Below are positions 21,996 to 55,862 of a stretch of 64,000 nt of DNA, piece by piece. Each line of letters begins with the position of its first letter. The stretch's first letter is position 1. Made by a program: the position numbers and the translations under genes. Source of the stretch: an uncultured Tateyamaria sp. (GTDB taxonomy: Bacteria; Pseudomonadota; Alphaproteobacteria; Rhodobacterales; Rhodobacteraceae); NCBI GenBank assembly GCA_947501275.1, contig CANMVD010000001.1, forward strand, positions 620,001 to 684,000, in the 5' to 3' direction. Under the pieces are notes generated by a model, which saw nothing but the letters and a program-made list of their open reading frames with translations, had not been told where the DNA came from and ran no database searches.

Positions 21996-22120
21996 ACCCC
22001 GCGGCGGGGTCCTTTGGGGTCTCCCCCTCCGGGCTCTGTCCACCTGTTGACAGGCGGCCAGTCTCTCCATCTCAGCAGGCGCACACTCACTGAGAAATAC
22101 TTCAAACCCGCGTCGCGGGT
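21996..22120 (-). other. Hairpins in the pufQ-pufB intercistronic region
   Basis: Two short GC-rich palindromes lie between pufQ and pufB: ACCCCGC/GCGGGGT (21996-22010) and ACCCGCG/CGCGGGT (22106-22120). The second follows the pufQ stop by about 10 bp and is followed on the minus strand by TTTGAAGTATTT. They may separate low-level pufQ message from abundant pufBA message, as RNA processing does in Rhodobacter; this is inference. Confidence 0.5.
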
Positions 22121-22130
22121 CTGACCAAGA

Positions 22131-22358
22131 TCAGGCGTTGAAAATCATCGGTGTGATGATCCGCGCTTGGGTCCAGGCCCGGGCCATCGGGCCCTTGTCT
22201 GTGAACGAACGCGATTTGATCGCGGCCAGCGCCCATGTCAGGCAGGCCAGCGGTAGCGTCGCCACAAAGATAATTGCGAAATAGACCATAAATTCAGTCT
22301 TCAGGCCGCTGCGCTTTTTCGGCGCCTCGGACACCATGTTGGACGTCATGTCAGTCAT
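22131..22358 (-). CDS. pufQ: PufQ, bacteriochlorophyll-protein assembly factor
   Basis: 75 residues with one hydrophobic helix in the middle (EFMVYFAIIFVATLPLACLTWALAAI). The pattern of short charged N-terminus, this helix and a following KSRSF... segment matches PufQ, which in Rhodobacter promotes bacteriochlorophyll formation, possibly as a pigment carrier. It starts one base before the bchZ stop codon and heads the puf genes. Sequence is poorly conserved in this family, so identity leans partly on position. Confidence 0.88.
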   Translation of the reverse strand: MTDMTSNMVSEAPKKRSGLKTEFMVYFAIIFVATLPLACLTWALAAIKSRSFTDKGPMARAWTQARIITPMIFNA

Positions 22359-23846
22359 TTATGTTCCTCCCTCGGAAACAGGGTCTGACAACCCGGCCAG
22401 AGCCGGATCAAGTGCACGCACAGTCTCGATCACAACCCGGTCCGCTCCTGCGTCGAGGGCTGCTTGCTCAGCCGCATCGCGCAAGGTTTTTGCCGCGGAA
22501 ATTCGGGTCAGGATGGGGTGTTGCTCAACAATACGGTCAAGCATGGCCTGCGCGTCTTCATCCCAGGGGAAGTCGCGGCGCAGGGTTGTCGGGGTCGCCT
22601 CGGCGGCATCCATATCGGTGGCCAAGGGCAGAATGTGGAACAGGGCGTCGAACAGACCGTTGCAGACCTCTTGGATCAGGTAGGTCGCACCGGCATAACC
22701 CATCATCGGCGTACCTGTATGACGGCGGATGGCCGCCCCGGGGAACGAGGCGGGAATGAACGCAGGGGATGGGCCATGACCGCCCTTGAGTTCGGCCAGA
22801 TACATCTTTTCGTTTATCGATCCAAACACGACAAGCGGGCGCTTTTGACCCATCCACGCGCGGACCTCTTCGTTGTTGGTCTTCTTGCCGGCCACCCGCG
22901 CGACAGCAAAGGCGCAAGGCAGGCCCATGTCGTCCTCAAGGAACAACCGGATCCCACGCGCGTAGGTCTCGTTTGCGACAACAGCAAAGGACGCAGTGGC
23001 AAAGAAATCCTGTGTGACGGACCGCCAAAGGTCCCATACGGGTTTGAGAGTCGAGTGTTTCTCGGTCTCGATAAAAGGTTCGGGGTCGAGGCCCACCAAA
23101 CTCCCCAGTGCGCGCAGGAATTTGGTGGTACTCTCGACCCCTATCGGGGCTTGTAGATACGGCTTGGCAAGAAGCTCGCACAACCCGCGCCCGAACTCGC
23201 GGTACATGCAGATGTTCACATCCGCATTCACCAGATTTCGCATGTCGGCCACATGGGCGCCCAATGGCATCACCATGTTGACCTCGCAGCCGATCCCTTC
23301 GACCAATCTGCGGATCTCGGCCAGATCGGATGGCATATTGAACGTGCCATACATCGGACCAAGGATGTTAACGCGAGGACGCGCACCTTCCTCGCGTTTC
23401 TTTTCGGGCGGCATGCGCCCTTTCGTCATGCCAAACTCGGTGAAGATCCAAGTCATGGCACGATCCGCCGCTTCCCACTGATCTTCATCAATGGTGCGTG
23501 GCAGAAATCTCTGAATGTTGGTGCCCATTGGCGTAACACCGCCACCGATCATCTCGGCAATCGATCCGGTCACAACAACTGCGGGCAAAGCCGGGTCTAA
23601 CGTGCCCCAGGCGCGTTTCATCGCACCCTCGGTGCCGTCACGGCCCAGTTCTTCTTCACCCAAACCCGTGGTTACAATCGGCAACTCATGCGGGGGCAAG
23701 GCATCGGTGTAGTGCAGAACAGACGTCACCGGCAGGTTCTCGCAACCCACAGGTCCGTCGATCACGCATTGCAGACCTTTGACAGCACAGAACGCATAGA
23801 CAGCGCCCCAGTATCCGCCCGCCCGGTCATGATCCATAATCAGCAT
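22359..23846 (-). CDS. bchZ: Chlorophyllide a reductase subunit BchZ
   Basis: 495 residues from [26 protein letters not shown], with [31 protein letters not shown], the conserved cluster-ligand region of this nitrogenase-like subunit. BchY and BchZ form the catalytic component that reduces ring B of chlorin to bacteriochlorin using electrons from BchX. ATG 23846 matches the family N-terminus; the open frame continues upstream only through a palindromic repeat and is not credible as protein. Confidence 0.96.
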
Positions 23847-23856
23847 GGGGCACCAC

Positions 23857-23913
23857 CCATGATGGGCAACATTGCCCATCCTACGTAGGATGGGCACTCG
23901 CTGCCCATCATGG
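23857..23913. repeat. Compound palindromic repeat between bchY and bchZ
   Basis: Two tandem hairpins share the arms GATGGGCA/TGCCCATC: 23861-23880 (4-nt loop) and 23889-23909 (5-nt loop), joined by the palindrome CTACGTAG (23881-23888). The centre 23873-23896 is also a perfect 24-bp palindrome, and the ends 23857-23868 and 23902-23913 pair as a 12-bp inverted repeat. It fills most of the only wide gap between the otherwise overlapping bchX-bchY-bchZ genes. It looks like a REP/MITE-type inserted repeat or a designed RNA structure. Confidence 0.8.
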
Positions 23914-23937
23914 CTCCGTATGCGATTCCGCCCTGCA

Positions 23938-25509
23938 TCAGATCATCTCCGCCGCTTTGGCGGCCTTGGCTTGCCGTTCAAGTTTCTTCTGGTTCTGAGC
24001 GCGGAAATCCGGACGCAGATTGGGCGCGCCTTCCCACACACCGGCCGTGTCGCCCGTACCCACGCCTTCAAAGAAGGCTTTCATGTTGTCCATGCGGTCC
24101 TTGTTGGCGATGGCGGCGTTGATCACCTCGGCCAGAGACCCGGCACCAGCCACCCCCATGAGGGGACGGGCCGAAATCAGATTGGTAAAGTAAAGACCCG
24201 GAATCCCAAGCTCTTTCGCCTTCTGCACCACCGGCGTTGTGCCCACGGCAAGGTCCGGCTGCACCGCTTCCATCGCCGCACAATCATCTTCCAACGAGGC
24301 GCGAAATTTGACTTTGACACCCTTGGCCTCAAGCCATGCCTGATCCTCAGCGTTCCAAGGCGTGCGGGGGCAGGCGGTGCCCACATAAGGCACATGCGCG
24401 CCGCTTTCGATCAGTAAACGCGCAACCAGCAGTTCGGAGCCTTCATAGCCACTCAACGTGATTGTGCCGTTGATCTGGGTCGCGTTCAGGGCGGCATCAA
24501 TGCCCGGCAGCACAACATTCTGCGCTGCCGCAATGTCATCCGCCGAAACGCCGTGCACATCGCCAATGGCTTTCAGCCACGACATGGTGCCGTCACGACC
24601 CACAGGGGCGGAACCCACAACAGGGCGACCCGCCGCTTCGAACTCCCGTACAGCTGCGGTGTAGAACGGATGGATCGCGGCCACGACAGAACTGTCGAGG
24701 GCTGCATAAAGCTCACGCCACTCGCGGCACGGCACGACAGGCCCCGCCGCTAGTCCCAAAGGCGCAAGCATCTGACCGATCATCATGGGATCGGCCGGGA
24801 ACATCTCACCCAGCAGGGCCACTGTCGGACGGTCCGATTTGCCACCCACAGGGGCAGCCACGGGTCCGGCCTCAATCTCTTCGCGCGCGTATTTCAGCAT
24901 CGCACCGGCCAGCACATCCTTGGCCTCGGCGTGGGTCGGAATACCAAAACCGGGCACATCAATGCCGACGATCCGCACGCCGTTGATTTCATTGGGCAAA
25001 AGCCGCAAAGGCACGCCAGACGCAGTTGGCACACACAGGTTGGTCACAACCACTGCGTCGTATTTTTCAGGGTCCGCAAGGTCATGCACGCTCTCGCGGA
25101 TGTCCTCAAACAGCTTGCCCGTCACCAGCGTCTCGGAATTGAACGGCACATAGCCCACCGACCGCCGCGCCCCGTAGAAATGGGACACAAATGTCAGGCC
25201 ATAAACGCAACAGGCCGAACCCGACAACACTGTCGCCACACGGCGCATCCGCAAACCCACACGCAAGGACCCAAAAGCAGGGCACATGGACTGTGGTTTG
25301 TCGTGGGGACCTTGGGGATAGTCAGCCGCAAACTGATCCAGCATCTCGGAGTTGCCAGCCATGCGGGCGGCCTTTTCCATCTCGGAACCGGAATGGCAGC
25401 CCAGACCGTCCACAGGCGCACCAGACACGTCAGGCATCTCTGCCTCGCGCGGGTGGCCCTTGGTCACCTCAACGGTGTCCGCGTCGTCATATGTGACTTT
25501 GGGACTCAC
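23938..25509 (-). CDS. bchY: Chlorophyllide a reductase subunit BchY
   Basis: 523 residues with a GTG start at 25509. The cysteine-containing N-terminal half ([49 protein letters not shown]) and [19 protein letters not shown] are BchY hallmarks. It pairs with BchZ in chlorophyllide reductase. The GTG overlaps the stop of a small upstream ORF by three bases (GTGA), showing coupling. The first 50 or so residues are hydrophilic and variable. Confidence 0.96.
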
Positions 25510-25718
25510 GTGCGCTCGTCCATGTTCATATTCTGGCGCAAAGCCAGAACATCACGCTTCATGCGCGCTTGAGCTTCACTCAGGGATTCCAGATCTGCAC
25601 GGGCACGCGCCACAGTCTCTTTCGTGATCCGGGCCCGCTCAAACGTCTTGGCAGCACGGCGCATTGTTGCATCAGCCAGTTCTTCGATCTCCAGGATGGC
25701 GGGGATGTCATGCATCAT
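25506..25718 (-). CDS. Small alpha-helical protein embedded between bchX and bchY
   Basis: 70 residues ([22 protein letters not shown]...), rich in Ala, Arg and Glu, predicted as one or two amphipathic helices with coiled-coil character; no Cys, membrane segment or known domain. The ATG at 25718 has a GGAGG site nine bases upstream, overlaps the bchX stop, and the gene's own stop overlaps the bchY GTG (GTGA). Such precise fit between two genes supports real translation. I do not recognise a homologue. It could be an assembly or stability factor for chlorophyllide reductase, or merely a translational bridge to bchY. Confidence 0.62.
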   Translation of the reverse strand: MMHDIPAILEIEELADATMRRAAKTFERARITKETVARARADLESLSEAQARMKRDVLALRQNMNMDERT

Positions 25719-26709
25719 CGTACACGACCTCCAGGCTTTCCTTGGGTGCCGCGTTCTTGCCGCGCATGTCCATGTCAGTGGCAGGCTCCAGAACGACGTT
25801 CCCGCCTGTCTCAGAGGCATCAAACAGGCCCAACAGACCATCCTGATCCAACGGCGTTGGACGCACCGGCGGAGCCACAGCAACATTTTCACCAAGGGCG
25901 GCAAACAGGCTGCCCCACTGGCTTTGGTCCGTACCAACGATCTGATAATTCGCGGATTTCTTGCGCAGGTCATCATCCTGAGGGATGGCCGCAAGGATCG
26001 GAATATCGACAGCTTCGGCAAAAGCCGCAGCCTCGCCTGTGCCATCGTCCTTGTTGATGACAAGACCGGCCACGCCAACATTGCCGCCCAGCTTGCGGAA
26101 GTATTCCACCGCCGAACACACGTTGTTGGCCACATACAGCGACTGCAAGTCGTTTGAAGCGACCAAGATCACCTTTTGCGCCATGTCGCGGGCAATGGGC
26201 AGACCAAAGCCGCCGCAGACAACGTCGCCAAGGAAATCGAGCAGGACATAGTCAAAGTCCCAATCGTGAAAGCCCAGCTTTTCCAGCAGCTCAAAGCCAT
26301 GAATGATGCCGCGACCGCCACAGCCGCGACCAACCTCGGGTCCACCCAGTTCCATCGCGAACACACCGCCGCGCTTGAAACAGACGTCGCCGATCTGCAC
26401 CTCTTCGCCCGCCAGTTTCTTGCGCGTCGAGGTTTCGATGATGGTGGGGCACGCCTTGCCGCCAAACAGCAGACTGGTGGTGTCGGATTTGGGATCGCAC
26501 CCGATCAGAAGAACGCGTTTACCTTGTTCCGCCATCATGTGGCTGAGATTGGCGAGCGTAAAGGATTTGCCGATACCGCCCTTGCCATAGATCGCAATGA
26601 TCTGGGTGTCTTTGGTTGCTTCCGTCGGGATCACGTCGGCCAGATCTTGTCCCGCTTCGTCACGCAGACGTTGATCGAAATCCTTGAGGTTTGGCACTTC
26701 GTCTTTCAC
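25708..26709 (-). CDS. bchX: Chlorophyllide a reductase iron protein BchX
   Basis: 333 residues, GTG start. The nitrogenase-iron-protein fold is clear: P-loop GKGGIGKS (42-49), GCDPKSDTT, and two cluster cysteines in [13 protein letters not shown] and [14 protein letters not shown]. It passes ATP-driven electrons to BchYZ. The start overlaps the bchC stop by four bases (GTGA). ADP-ribosylation-type CGGRG context and N-terminal 35-residue extension are usual for BchX. Confidence 0.97.
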
Positions 26710-27647
26710 GACATACGCTCCCAGTCCAAAATCATTTTCAGGCAGGCCCCATCGGTAAAGGCCTGTTCGTAAGCAGCGCGCGCATCAGCGGCGGGCCGAG
26801 TGTGGGTGATCAGACCGTCAAGGCTGAGGGCAGCGCCCTCAACCAGACCGCGGGTGGCGGCCAGGTCTTCGCGGGTCCATTCAGCGGCCACGCGGAACCG
26901 GGCCTCTTTCATGAAGGCCGGTGGAAAGGCAAAAGACAGCGGTTCGGAGTAGAACCCGGCCAGCACGATCTCGCCACCCTTGGCGATGCGGCCCACAAGA
27001 TCGTTCAGCAACGCGCCCTGACCGGAGGCGTCATAGATTGACGTGTAGTCGCGGCGTTTGTCGGCGTCCGGGTCAATGACCTCGTAACCCATAGCACCGT
27101 CGCGGCGGGCCGGATCAATTTCCCAAACTGTCGGGGCAGGCGCGCCTGCAGTAATTGTCAGACGGGCCAGAAGCCGCCCCAAAACACCGTGACCAATGAT
27201 CAAATCAGGCACGGCCTTGTTCATGCCCGCCATCGCGTGGCGTGCCGTCGCAGCCAAGGCCAGCAACGCACCCTCGGGTCCGTGGCCAGCATCGATTCGC
27301 GTTACGCGCTCGCTGTCTGTCACGATGCGGCGCGCCGCGCCCCCAAACAGGCCAAAGGCCCCTTCGTAGCAATTCGCACCCGGCACAAACACGCGGTCGC
27401 CCGTCTTGAACCCGGTCAATGTACCTGCTTCGACCACCTCGCCGACAGCTTCATAGCCGGGCACCAACGGGTAGCCCATACCGGGAAAGGGAGGCATTTC
27501 GCCCGACCAGAACAGCTTTTCCGTACCGGTCGAGATTCCGGAATGGGCTATTTCAACAACAAGATCCGCTGGCCCCGGCGCATTCAGCGTCAGAATGTCC
27601 ACATCCAGATCCTTGGGACCCTTCAAAAGGACGGCAGCAGTTTGCAC
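26706..27647 (-). CDS. bchC: 3-hydroxyethyl bacteriochlorophyllide a dehydrogenase
   Basis: 313 residues, GTG start with AAGGAG eight bases upstream. It is a zinc-alcohol-dehydrogenase-like protein ([35 protein letters not shown]) that oxidises the 3-hydroxyethyl group to acetyl on the way to bacteriochlorophyll a. A PpsR operator pair sits 77-120 bp upstream of the start, so a promoter for bchCXYZ and puf lies there in addition to read-through from crtEF. Confidence 0.95.
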
Positions 27648-27723
27648 GAGGCATCTCCTTGTTGGCGCCCGCCATCGTCCTGATCTCGACAGGCGAGACT
27701 CAGCTTGGCGGTTTTCTTGTTAG

Positions 27724-27767
27724 TGTCATTCTAGTTAGACATTTCAATGTGTCAATTAAATTGGACA
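27724..27767. promoter_or_regulatory. Tandem PpsR operators upstream of bchC
   Basis: Two perfect TGT-N12-ACA motifs: 27724-27741 (TGTCATTCTAGTTAGACA) and 27750-27767 (TGTCAATTAAATTGGACA), eight bases apart, the classical spacing for a PpsR/CrtJ tetramer. They lie between crtF and bchC and should repress bchC and downstream genes under oxygen or light. Confidence 0.9.
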
Positions 27768-27776
27768 CTTTTCCTG

Positions 27777-28892
27777 TCAGGATGGCTTGCGCGCTGTCAG
27801 AACACGCGTGACATAGGCTCTGGCCGGGGCCGGGCTGCGGATTTCTTCGAACCCTGCGGCCTTGACAAAGGCACCGATCTCCTCGGCGCTGCGGGCGCGG
27901 CCCGTTTGCATCGCCATCGTGTAGAACGCGAAATAGATATCGCCCGCCCGTTCAGGCCGCGCGCCCCCACCCATGGGTTCGGAAATGATCAACCTGCCAC
28001 CGGCTGGCAGGGCATCGTATGCTTTGGCCAGCAAGTCCTCGACCGTTGCGTCTGCATGGTCATACAACACCCGGATCAACGAAATGGCGTCCGCCCCGGT
28101 GGGCAGCGGTTCCTGGCGAAACGAACCGGCGATAATCTCAACCCGGTCCGCCTGCCCGGCTGCGGCAAAGCGTTCGGTGGCATCCGGGACAACGGGGGGC
28201 AAATCAAACAGCGTCATCTGCAAATCTGGCGACGAGCGGCCCGCAGCCTCAAGAAACGCGCCGGTGCCGCCTCCCACATCCAAAAGCCGTTCAATCCCAT
28301 TCAGGGACACCGCGCGCAACGTGTCTTCGGCCACCAGCCTTTGGGATTGCGCCATCAGATCCGAATAGATCGTCGCTTCGGCGTCGGGCACATCACCGCC
28401 GAAGACATAGGGCCAGAACTGGCTCAGCTCAGTCTTTTCCGGCCCGCGAAGCAGGGCAACCGGATCGCTGAGATCTGTATAAAATGCCTTGTGATGCCGG
28501 ATCATCGCTTCGAGGCCCGGTACGCCCATCAACGCAGCCCCCTTGCGCGCCAAGGCATAGCGGTCCCGTTTGCGCTTGAGGAGATTGAGAGCCGCTGCGG
28601 CTTGCAAAAGCACCTGCATCCGCGCCTCCGGCACATCGCAAGCGTGACCCAGTTGCGCGGCACTCAAGGGCCCACCCCTCAGGCGACGGAAAATGTCCAA
28701 TTCAACCAACGCCATCAACACTTGGCTTTGCACAAAGCCTTGCACGACTTCGAACAGCGCCGCTCCATCCGAGCGGGCGCGGGCACGTGTCAAAGGGAAC
28801 CGACTGGCCCAGCTCTGAAACCCGGGACGCGCGATCAGGCGATTCAACCAACCGCCCCGCCACCCCGGTAAATCATGGGCCTGCGTGTTCAT
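27777..28892 (-). CDS. crtF: Demethylspheroidene O-methyltransferase
   Basis: 371 residues. The C-terminal half is a SAM-dependent methyltransferase with LLDVGGGTGAFLEA as the cofactor loop; the N-terminal half is the dimerisation/helical domain usual in CrtF. It methylates the 1-hydroxy group of demethylspheroidene in spheroidene synthesis. It overlaps crtE by four bases and ends about 130 bp before bchC, with PpsR sites between. Confidence 0.95.
   Translation of the reverse strand: MNTQAHDLPGWRGGWLNRLIARPGFQSWASRFPLTRARARSDGAALFEVVQGFVQSQVLMALVELDIFRRLRGGPLSAAQLGHACDVPEARMQVLLQAAAALNLLKRKRDRYALARKGAALMGVPGLEAMIRHHKAFYTDLSDPVALLRGPEKTELSQFWPYVFGGDVPDAEATIYSDLMAQSQRLVAEDTLRAVSLNGIERLLDVGGGTGAFLEAAGRSSPDLQMTLFDLPPVVPDATERFAAAGQADRVEIIAGSFRQEPLPTGADAISLIRVLYDHADATVEDLLAKAYDALPAGGRLIISEPMGGGARPERAGDIYFAFYTMAMQTGRARSAEEIGAFVKAAGFEEIRSPAPARAYVTRVLTARKPS

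Positions 28893-52536: not shown

Positions 52537-55862
<3,326 letters not shown>

Follow-up and report, generated by a model that had tools for sequence, protein, structure and literature searches.

A small open reading frame between bchX and bchY of a Tateyamaria sp., which we call bridge ORF 1, is probably a translated bridge that couples the synthesis of BchX and BchY. It lies in the window, that is, the whole stretch of 64,000 nucleotides that was analyzed. Translation and coupling are what we infer; the anatomy, reading frame, openness, absence of stops, and codon and Shine–Dalgarno (SD) statistics from which we infer them were read directly from the DNA of the window and its relatives. 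The features of the window that are relevant to this proposal are as follows:

25708..26709, minus strand: bchX, encoding the chlorophyllide a reductase iron protein (TIGR02016, 434.7 bits)
25728..25732, minus strand: GGAGG Shine–Dalgarno-like site of bridge ORF 1, within Leu-Glu-Val codons of bchX
25506..25718, minus strand: bridge ORF 1 (bchX-bchY), 70 aa, ATG at 25718-25716 and TGA at 25508-25506
23938..25509, minus strand: bchY, GTG start (TIGR02015, 735.1 bits)
23840..23938, minus strand: bridge ORF 2 (bchY-bchZ), 32 aa, TGATG entry at 23940-23936
22359..23846, minus strand: bchZ, with a likely ATG start at 23846
54079..54082, minus strand: direct 4-nt overlap of bchN and bchB, with no bridge in the window

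The initial annotation described a 70-codon frame with a GGAGG site nine bases upstream, a start within the final bchX codons and a GTGA at the start of bchY, and all of these details were confirmed. The GGAGG at 25732-25728 precedes the ATG by nine bases, the overlap with bchX is 11 nt long (bchX ends at 25708), and the overlap with bchY is the 4-nt GTGA at 25506-25509. Its further view that both junctions resemble translational coupling holds for the anatomy of the overlaps, and coupling itself is our likely reading of them. Bridge ORF 2 is similarly placed, with its stop within the start of bchZ (ATGCTGA, 23846-23840, a 7-nt overlap), and the overlaps of both ORFs are of the few nucleotides typical of translationally coupled gene pairs. 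The longest bchZ ORF starts at a GTG at 23897, 51 nt upstream of the ATG at 23846, and the annotated bchZ start of R. litoralis is 91 nt from bchY, the same distance as the ATG at 23846 in the window, which is probably the true start. At the other end of the gene group, the start of bchX overlaps bchC by 4 nt (26706-26709).

In the mechanism that we propose, ribosomes finishing bchX, or entering at the SD in bchX, would translate bridge ORF 1 and then re-initiate on bchY at the GTGA. The synthesis of BchX and BchY would in this way stay coupled despite DNA inserted between the two genes, which in many relatives overlap directly. The bridge ORF would restore overlaps at both ends of the spacer, and junction DNA would, as a rule, be retained only as an in-frame ORF. 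Bridge ORF 1 would add one more link to a chain of coupled, overlapping genes. According to PMC10666635, termination–reinitiation coupling in reporter experiments is almost lost when genes are about 20 nt apart, short overlaps are enriched among genes for subunits of complexes, and the crossing by ribosomes of spacers between coupled genes is debated. The termination–reinitiation pairs in the available parts of PMC10666635 and PMC12548453 are like the junctions studied here in having NTGA or TGATG overlaps and in encoding subunits of one complex, and coupling there needs the overlap; they are direct pairs, whereas in the present case a spacer of at least 43 nt is occupied by an additional small ORF, which restores the overlap on either side. 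The nearest case that we found described is the axe-txe minigene (PMC8708949), a mini-ORF in an operon with an effect in cis on the next gene, as proposed here, and for which frame and distance matter. That minigene has two codons and a proposed action on mRNA stability, whereas bridge ORF 1 is as long as its spacer and overlaps both neighbors. In the literature that we searched, with few subscription journals among it, we found no account of such bridges or of any gene located between bchX and bchY; in the photosynthesis gene table of PMC6052148, bchX and bchY of D. shibae have consecutive locus tags.

The initial annotation also described the product as helical and unrecognized, and both points stood. 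The peptide of the window is predicted to be a single helix over residues 5–67 with a mean pLDDT of 93.3, and it had no match among Pfam or NCBIfam families up to E 10. A Foldseek search with the predicted helix gave no match up to E 10, a sequence search against solved structures gave nothing below E 0.16, and Rfam had no match within 22000-28000 of the window. Slot 1 peptides of relatives gave weak single Pfam matches only, the best at E 0.0076 and 0.013. (We refer to the bchX-bchY junction as slot 1, to bchY-bchZ as slot 2 and to bchN-bchB as slot 3.) The conservation of the peptide that a tblastn-type search was proposed to reveal did not appear: in single-sequence searches it had no match at E <=0.001 in the family, the 20 genomes of its own genus or the plasmids, including 393 other family genomes, fewer than half of which have bchY.

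Because the search with the window peptide found only itself, the junctions were compared directly. Slot 1 loci were drawn from a genome scan (the best 80 of 237), the window's own genus, family genomes and plasmid records, bchY being present in 20 of 20 own-genus genomes and above the cut-off in 161 of 394 family genomes. The set held 249 loci, two without bchX, leaving 247 with both genes and 217 distinct junctions; the bchY start could be assigned in 186 of these, and the other 31 were excluded from the slot 1 counts. The spacer was shorter than 40 nt in 70 junctions, mostly direct overlaps, and at least 40 nt in 116. In 94 of these 116 spacers bchY was in the frame of bchX (p = 5.9e-26), so that the absence of conservation in related species, which the initial annotation had named as evidence against the frame, was not what was found. 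In 93 there is an ORF in the next frame that begins within the final bchX codons and whose overlap with bchY is exactly 4 nt (91) or 1 nt (2). These ORFs range from 23 to 90 codons. Related genomes are non-independent samples, and in a subset of about one junction per genus 47 of 59 spacers were exactly bridged (p = 3.7e-13). The same anatomy was judged by eye to be present in 11 of the 31 junctions with unassigned starts. The ORF has four previously annotated counterparts, all from plasmid records, that occupy slot 1 as hypothetical proteins and overlap both bchX and bchY: WP_158308178.1 (R. litoralis), WP_076630660.1 (T. omphalii), WP_169642524.1 (R. ponti) and WP_259993782.1 (Sulfitobacter sp. 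S190). Outside the family, none of the 25 junctions from the class had the exact slot 1 anatomy, and one of the loci there (L266) has a TTG ORF that might pass a loose rule.

Among the 106 spacers free of the repeat described below, 101 form an unbroken chain of overlapping frames, 90 by exact bridging, 7 by longer overlaps and 4 by tandem ORFs; the five unbridged are L036, L135, L190, L211 and L244. The apparent spacer of L190 codes for what is normally the end of bchX (...MRGKHAAPKKSLEVVYDEA), and its bchX therefore looks frameshifted or partly duplicated. At the four tandem loci (L056, L059, L220 and L235) a pair of small ORFs lies between bchX and bchY, and the upstream ORF of some of them ends in HDQA or DV, like bchX itself, a resemblance that would fit copying of the junction. 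Tateyamaria loci among the best 80 of 237 encode BchY proteins 86–93% identical to that of the window, which by this measure probably belongs with that genus. At L109 (genome G240), also of the window's genus, the identity is 79%, and its photosynthesis cluster may have another origin.

The SD sites within bchX also distinguish junctions with and without a bridge. Pairing of the window's site with the anti-SD has a predicted energy of -10.5 kcal/mol, and the median for sites within bchX codons was -10.5 kcal/mol with a bridge versus -4.3 kcal/mol without one (p = 6.8e-13). When 17 independent pairs were taken from the tree, the SD was stronger with the bridge in 9.9 pairs on average, the opposite in 0.9 and equal in 6.1 (median p 0.012, range 0.0002–0.18); with a narrower CTGGAGG label the same test gave a median p of 0.07. 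The pairing of the window's own bchY site is weak (-3.0). Over the set, the bchY sites have medians of -6.0 with and -5.9 without a bridge (p = 0.45), and since they are equally strong in both cases, coupling need not be the sole entry to bchY.

The bchY-bchZ junctions follow the same rule more strictly. There were 111 distinct slot 2 junctions in the family, biased to near relatives, of which 35 were direct or nearly so and 76 had a spacer of at least 30 nt; 12 loci that had lacked one gene in the search were left out, as were two that were mis-anchored (L125 and L129). All 74 usable spacers, of 28 distinct lengths from 46 to 262 nt, were in one frame and open from the bchY stop to 1–13 nt inside bchZ. 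In 2748 codons of the bridge frame there was no stop, whereas the two other sense frames had 51 and 47 and the antisense frames 32–47. Detection of these bridges hinges on the start chosen for bchZ: with the start of the longest ORF they were seen in 0 of 83, and the conserved start revealed them. The annotation table of R. litoralis has no bchY-bchZ bridge. The GC content by codon position was nearly flat (0.643/0.601/0.622), and substitutions were even over the three positions (76/79/69 in 13 close pairs, some of which share a locus). In slot 2, then, the frame and its openness are maintained and the peptide is not; it looks like a by-product and evolves as if neutral. Outside the family 22 of 25 slot 2 junctions were direct, and of the three longer ones two were mis-anchored and one was bridged.

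Slot 3 was tested because a bridge was found between bchN and bchB of Sulfitobacter sp. S190. The two genes overlap by 4 nt in 71 of the 101 distinct junctions, are otherwise adjacent in three and are separated by a spacer in 27 (43–112 nt, S190 included), every one of which is in frame and bridged, with entry at -4 or -1 and exit at +4; L306 (18398-21329) is one of these bridged loci. The bridge frame had no stop in 586 codons, versus 8 and 8 in the other frames, and the GC content by codon position was again nearly flat (0.636/0.597/0.666). The slot 3 peptide, too, is probably a by-product. Taken over the bchY-bchZ and bchN-bchB junctions of the family, 0 of 101 usable spacers are untranslatable, as though evolution had tested many times whether ribosomes can cross such spacers. 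As a base rate, two annotated records held 13 other co-directional spacers of 30–300 nt, among which there were no strict and two loose bridges; for this check the annotated hypothetical gene of R. litoralis was omitted and its slot was treated as a spacer.

The initial annotation suggested that the ORF may encode an accessory protein of chlorophyllide reductase. In its fullest form this would be a genuine, fast-evolving protein acting in the assembly, protection or regulation of BchX/BchYZ, with the overlaps reflecting operon packing. We regard it as possible, if on the doubtful side, and as unneeded to explain the junctions. A small gene among genes of nitrogenase-like reductases has parallels in anfG and vnfG, the small conserved subunit genes of nitrogenase operons. 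Those are conserved subunits, whereas bridge ORF 1 has no Pfam or NCBIfam match and lies between NifH-like and NifD-like genes. In favor of a protein, many slot 1 peptides show selection. Outside the overlaps, slot 1 ORFs have GC contents of 0.703/0.498/0.732 at the three codon positions, and GC3 exceeds GC2 in 91 of 93. In 17 close pairs from the three peptide groups described below, differences by codon position were 232/201/361 (68/60/131 in seven F3 pairs, 107/93/149 in five F4 pairs and 57/48/81 in five F1 pairs), the pairs having been aligned as proteins, which biases against changes at the first two positions; three repeat-spacer loci treated alike gave 26/35/30, with no excess at the third position. 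The dN/dS ratio, which had been put forward as a check on the frame, was computed between pairs of relatives, as these are too diverged from the window peptide itself. It was 0.08–0.43 in 12 of 24 non-repeat pairs, 0.50–0.73 in six and saturated in six, and was 0.82 and 0.95 in two repeat pairs. The check thus bore out selection in several pairs of relatives; for F4, where the values were 0.20, 0.50 and 0.60 and the other pairs were saturated, selection is less clear. The conserved core of F3 and the confident prediction of a single helix for the window peptide also fit a protein. Bridging in slot 1 is not strict, and a pure spacer would leave the codon-level selection there unexplained.

The relationships among the peptides speak against an accessory protein. 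Slot 1 peptides, which are hypervariable, were sorted manually and on the pattern of their starts into F1 (MFDLDxLxxxDxALxxL), F3 (conserved core ARPEQ[IL]xRLLxDI, with Cys-rich starts in some members) and F4, the helices of Roseobacter and Tateyamaria and the group nearest to the window peptide; 11 of 93 fit none. Comparisons of the three profiles found similarity only over the initial five or six residues, and these are largely set by bchX. In permissive single-linkage BLAST clustering within the slot, with the start trimmed, F1 and F3 fell in one cluster of 51, F4 fell in small clusters, and 23 peptides, including that of the window, were singletons. As F1 and F3 cluster together and F4 apart, there are at least two, and perhaps three or more, unrelated groups. 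Profile matches, several of them rows of the profiles themselves, were mostly directly 5' of bchY: 8 of 11 for F3 (of the remaining three, one was in a genome for which no bchY position was listed and two were weak), 16 of 24 for F1 (the others being seven weak matches and one that could not be placed) and, in the window's own genus, 10 of 11 for F4 (one weak). Against an F4 profile built without it, the window peptide scored a weak 15.2 bits (L224, of another group, scored 14.4); this score was reached by none of 2000 shuffles and, when the start was kept constant, by one of 3000, and some of it may come from a helix pattern in common.

A FastTree tree of 217 rows requires 35 presence/absence changes of the slot 1 ORF, at least 17 of them forced by supported branches. 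Nor is the ORF present wherever the enzyme is: the 70 of 186 junctions under 40 nt include four Tateyamaria loci (L009, L010, L018 and L060) in which there is no ORF and an ATGA joins bchX directly to bchY. Some slot 1 occupants have just 23 aa, and slots 2 and 3 are bridged as well, the former without selection on its peptide and the latter with a nearly flat GC profile. We therefore prefer bridging as the explanation of the junctions. Slot 1 occupants may be bridges and, in some lineages, small proteins as well, many of them under purifying selection and possibly having gained a lineage-specific role.

A serious, though in our opinion unlikely, alternative reason for translation of the spacers is the shielding of the RNA, in which ribosomes would protect it from Rho-dependent termination, RNases or the folding of G+C-rich repeats, and re-initiation would not be what is selected. 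A G+C-rich, hairpin-like repeat is indeed found in the spacers (GGGGC...GCCCC, followed by a CCCCGGAGTATTT-like part), and in the genome of the window a related 15-mer has nine copies when up to two mismatches are allowed, versus two for a reversed control. Among the 76 slot 2 spacers the repeat occurs in 26, each of which is in frame, as shielding would predict. In addition, the two-codon axe-txe mini-ORF raises txe expression, possibly via protection of the mRNA, according to PMC8708949. Shielding needs no overlap of stop and start, yet overlaps of 1–13 nt in 74 of 74 slot 2 and 4 nt in 27 of 27 slot 3 spacers were observed. Moreover, just 3 of the 10 repeat-bearing slot 1 spacers (L011, L012, L033, L035, L062, L066, L089, L157, L180 and L217) are in frame, versus 91 of 106 others. 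Four of the ten (L033, L035, L180 and L217) are unbridged; of the other six, three are exact, two overlap bchY by 11 nt and the ORF of L157 is off-frame.

That the bridges are chance open frames or annotation artefacts is very improbable, and is refuted for the set. A spacer of comparable size and composition has a probability of about one-third of being open by chance (0.37 for slot 1 and 0.35 for slot 2), yet the frame is kept in 94 of 116, 74 of 74 and 27 of 27 spacers and the slot 2 stops are all in the neighboring frames.

A broader interpretation, plausible but still tentative, is that junctions between genes for coupled subunits act as both a filter and a nursery. DNA entering them, often a repeat, would as a rule survive only in the form of an in-frame bridge ORF, would for that reason be translated, and would repeatedly yield new small proteins. 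The dissimilar bchX-bchY groups would then be separate gene births, and the rule would apply at bchY-bchZ and bchN-bchB also. Bridged junctions offer a ready system for studies of translational coupling, of subunit balance in nitrogenase-like enzymes and of the birth of small genes, and they caution that a conserved small ORF need not imply a conserved protein.

During the comparison of slot 1 peptides, we noted that a number of those in F1 contain Cys-Pro stretches (CPF, CPV, CPH and similar), namely those of L133, L181, L193, L197, L212, L216, L221, L232, L237, L255 and L262. These stretches are reminiscent of heme-regulatory motifs.
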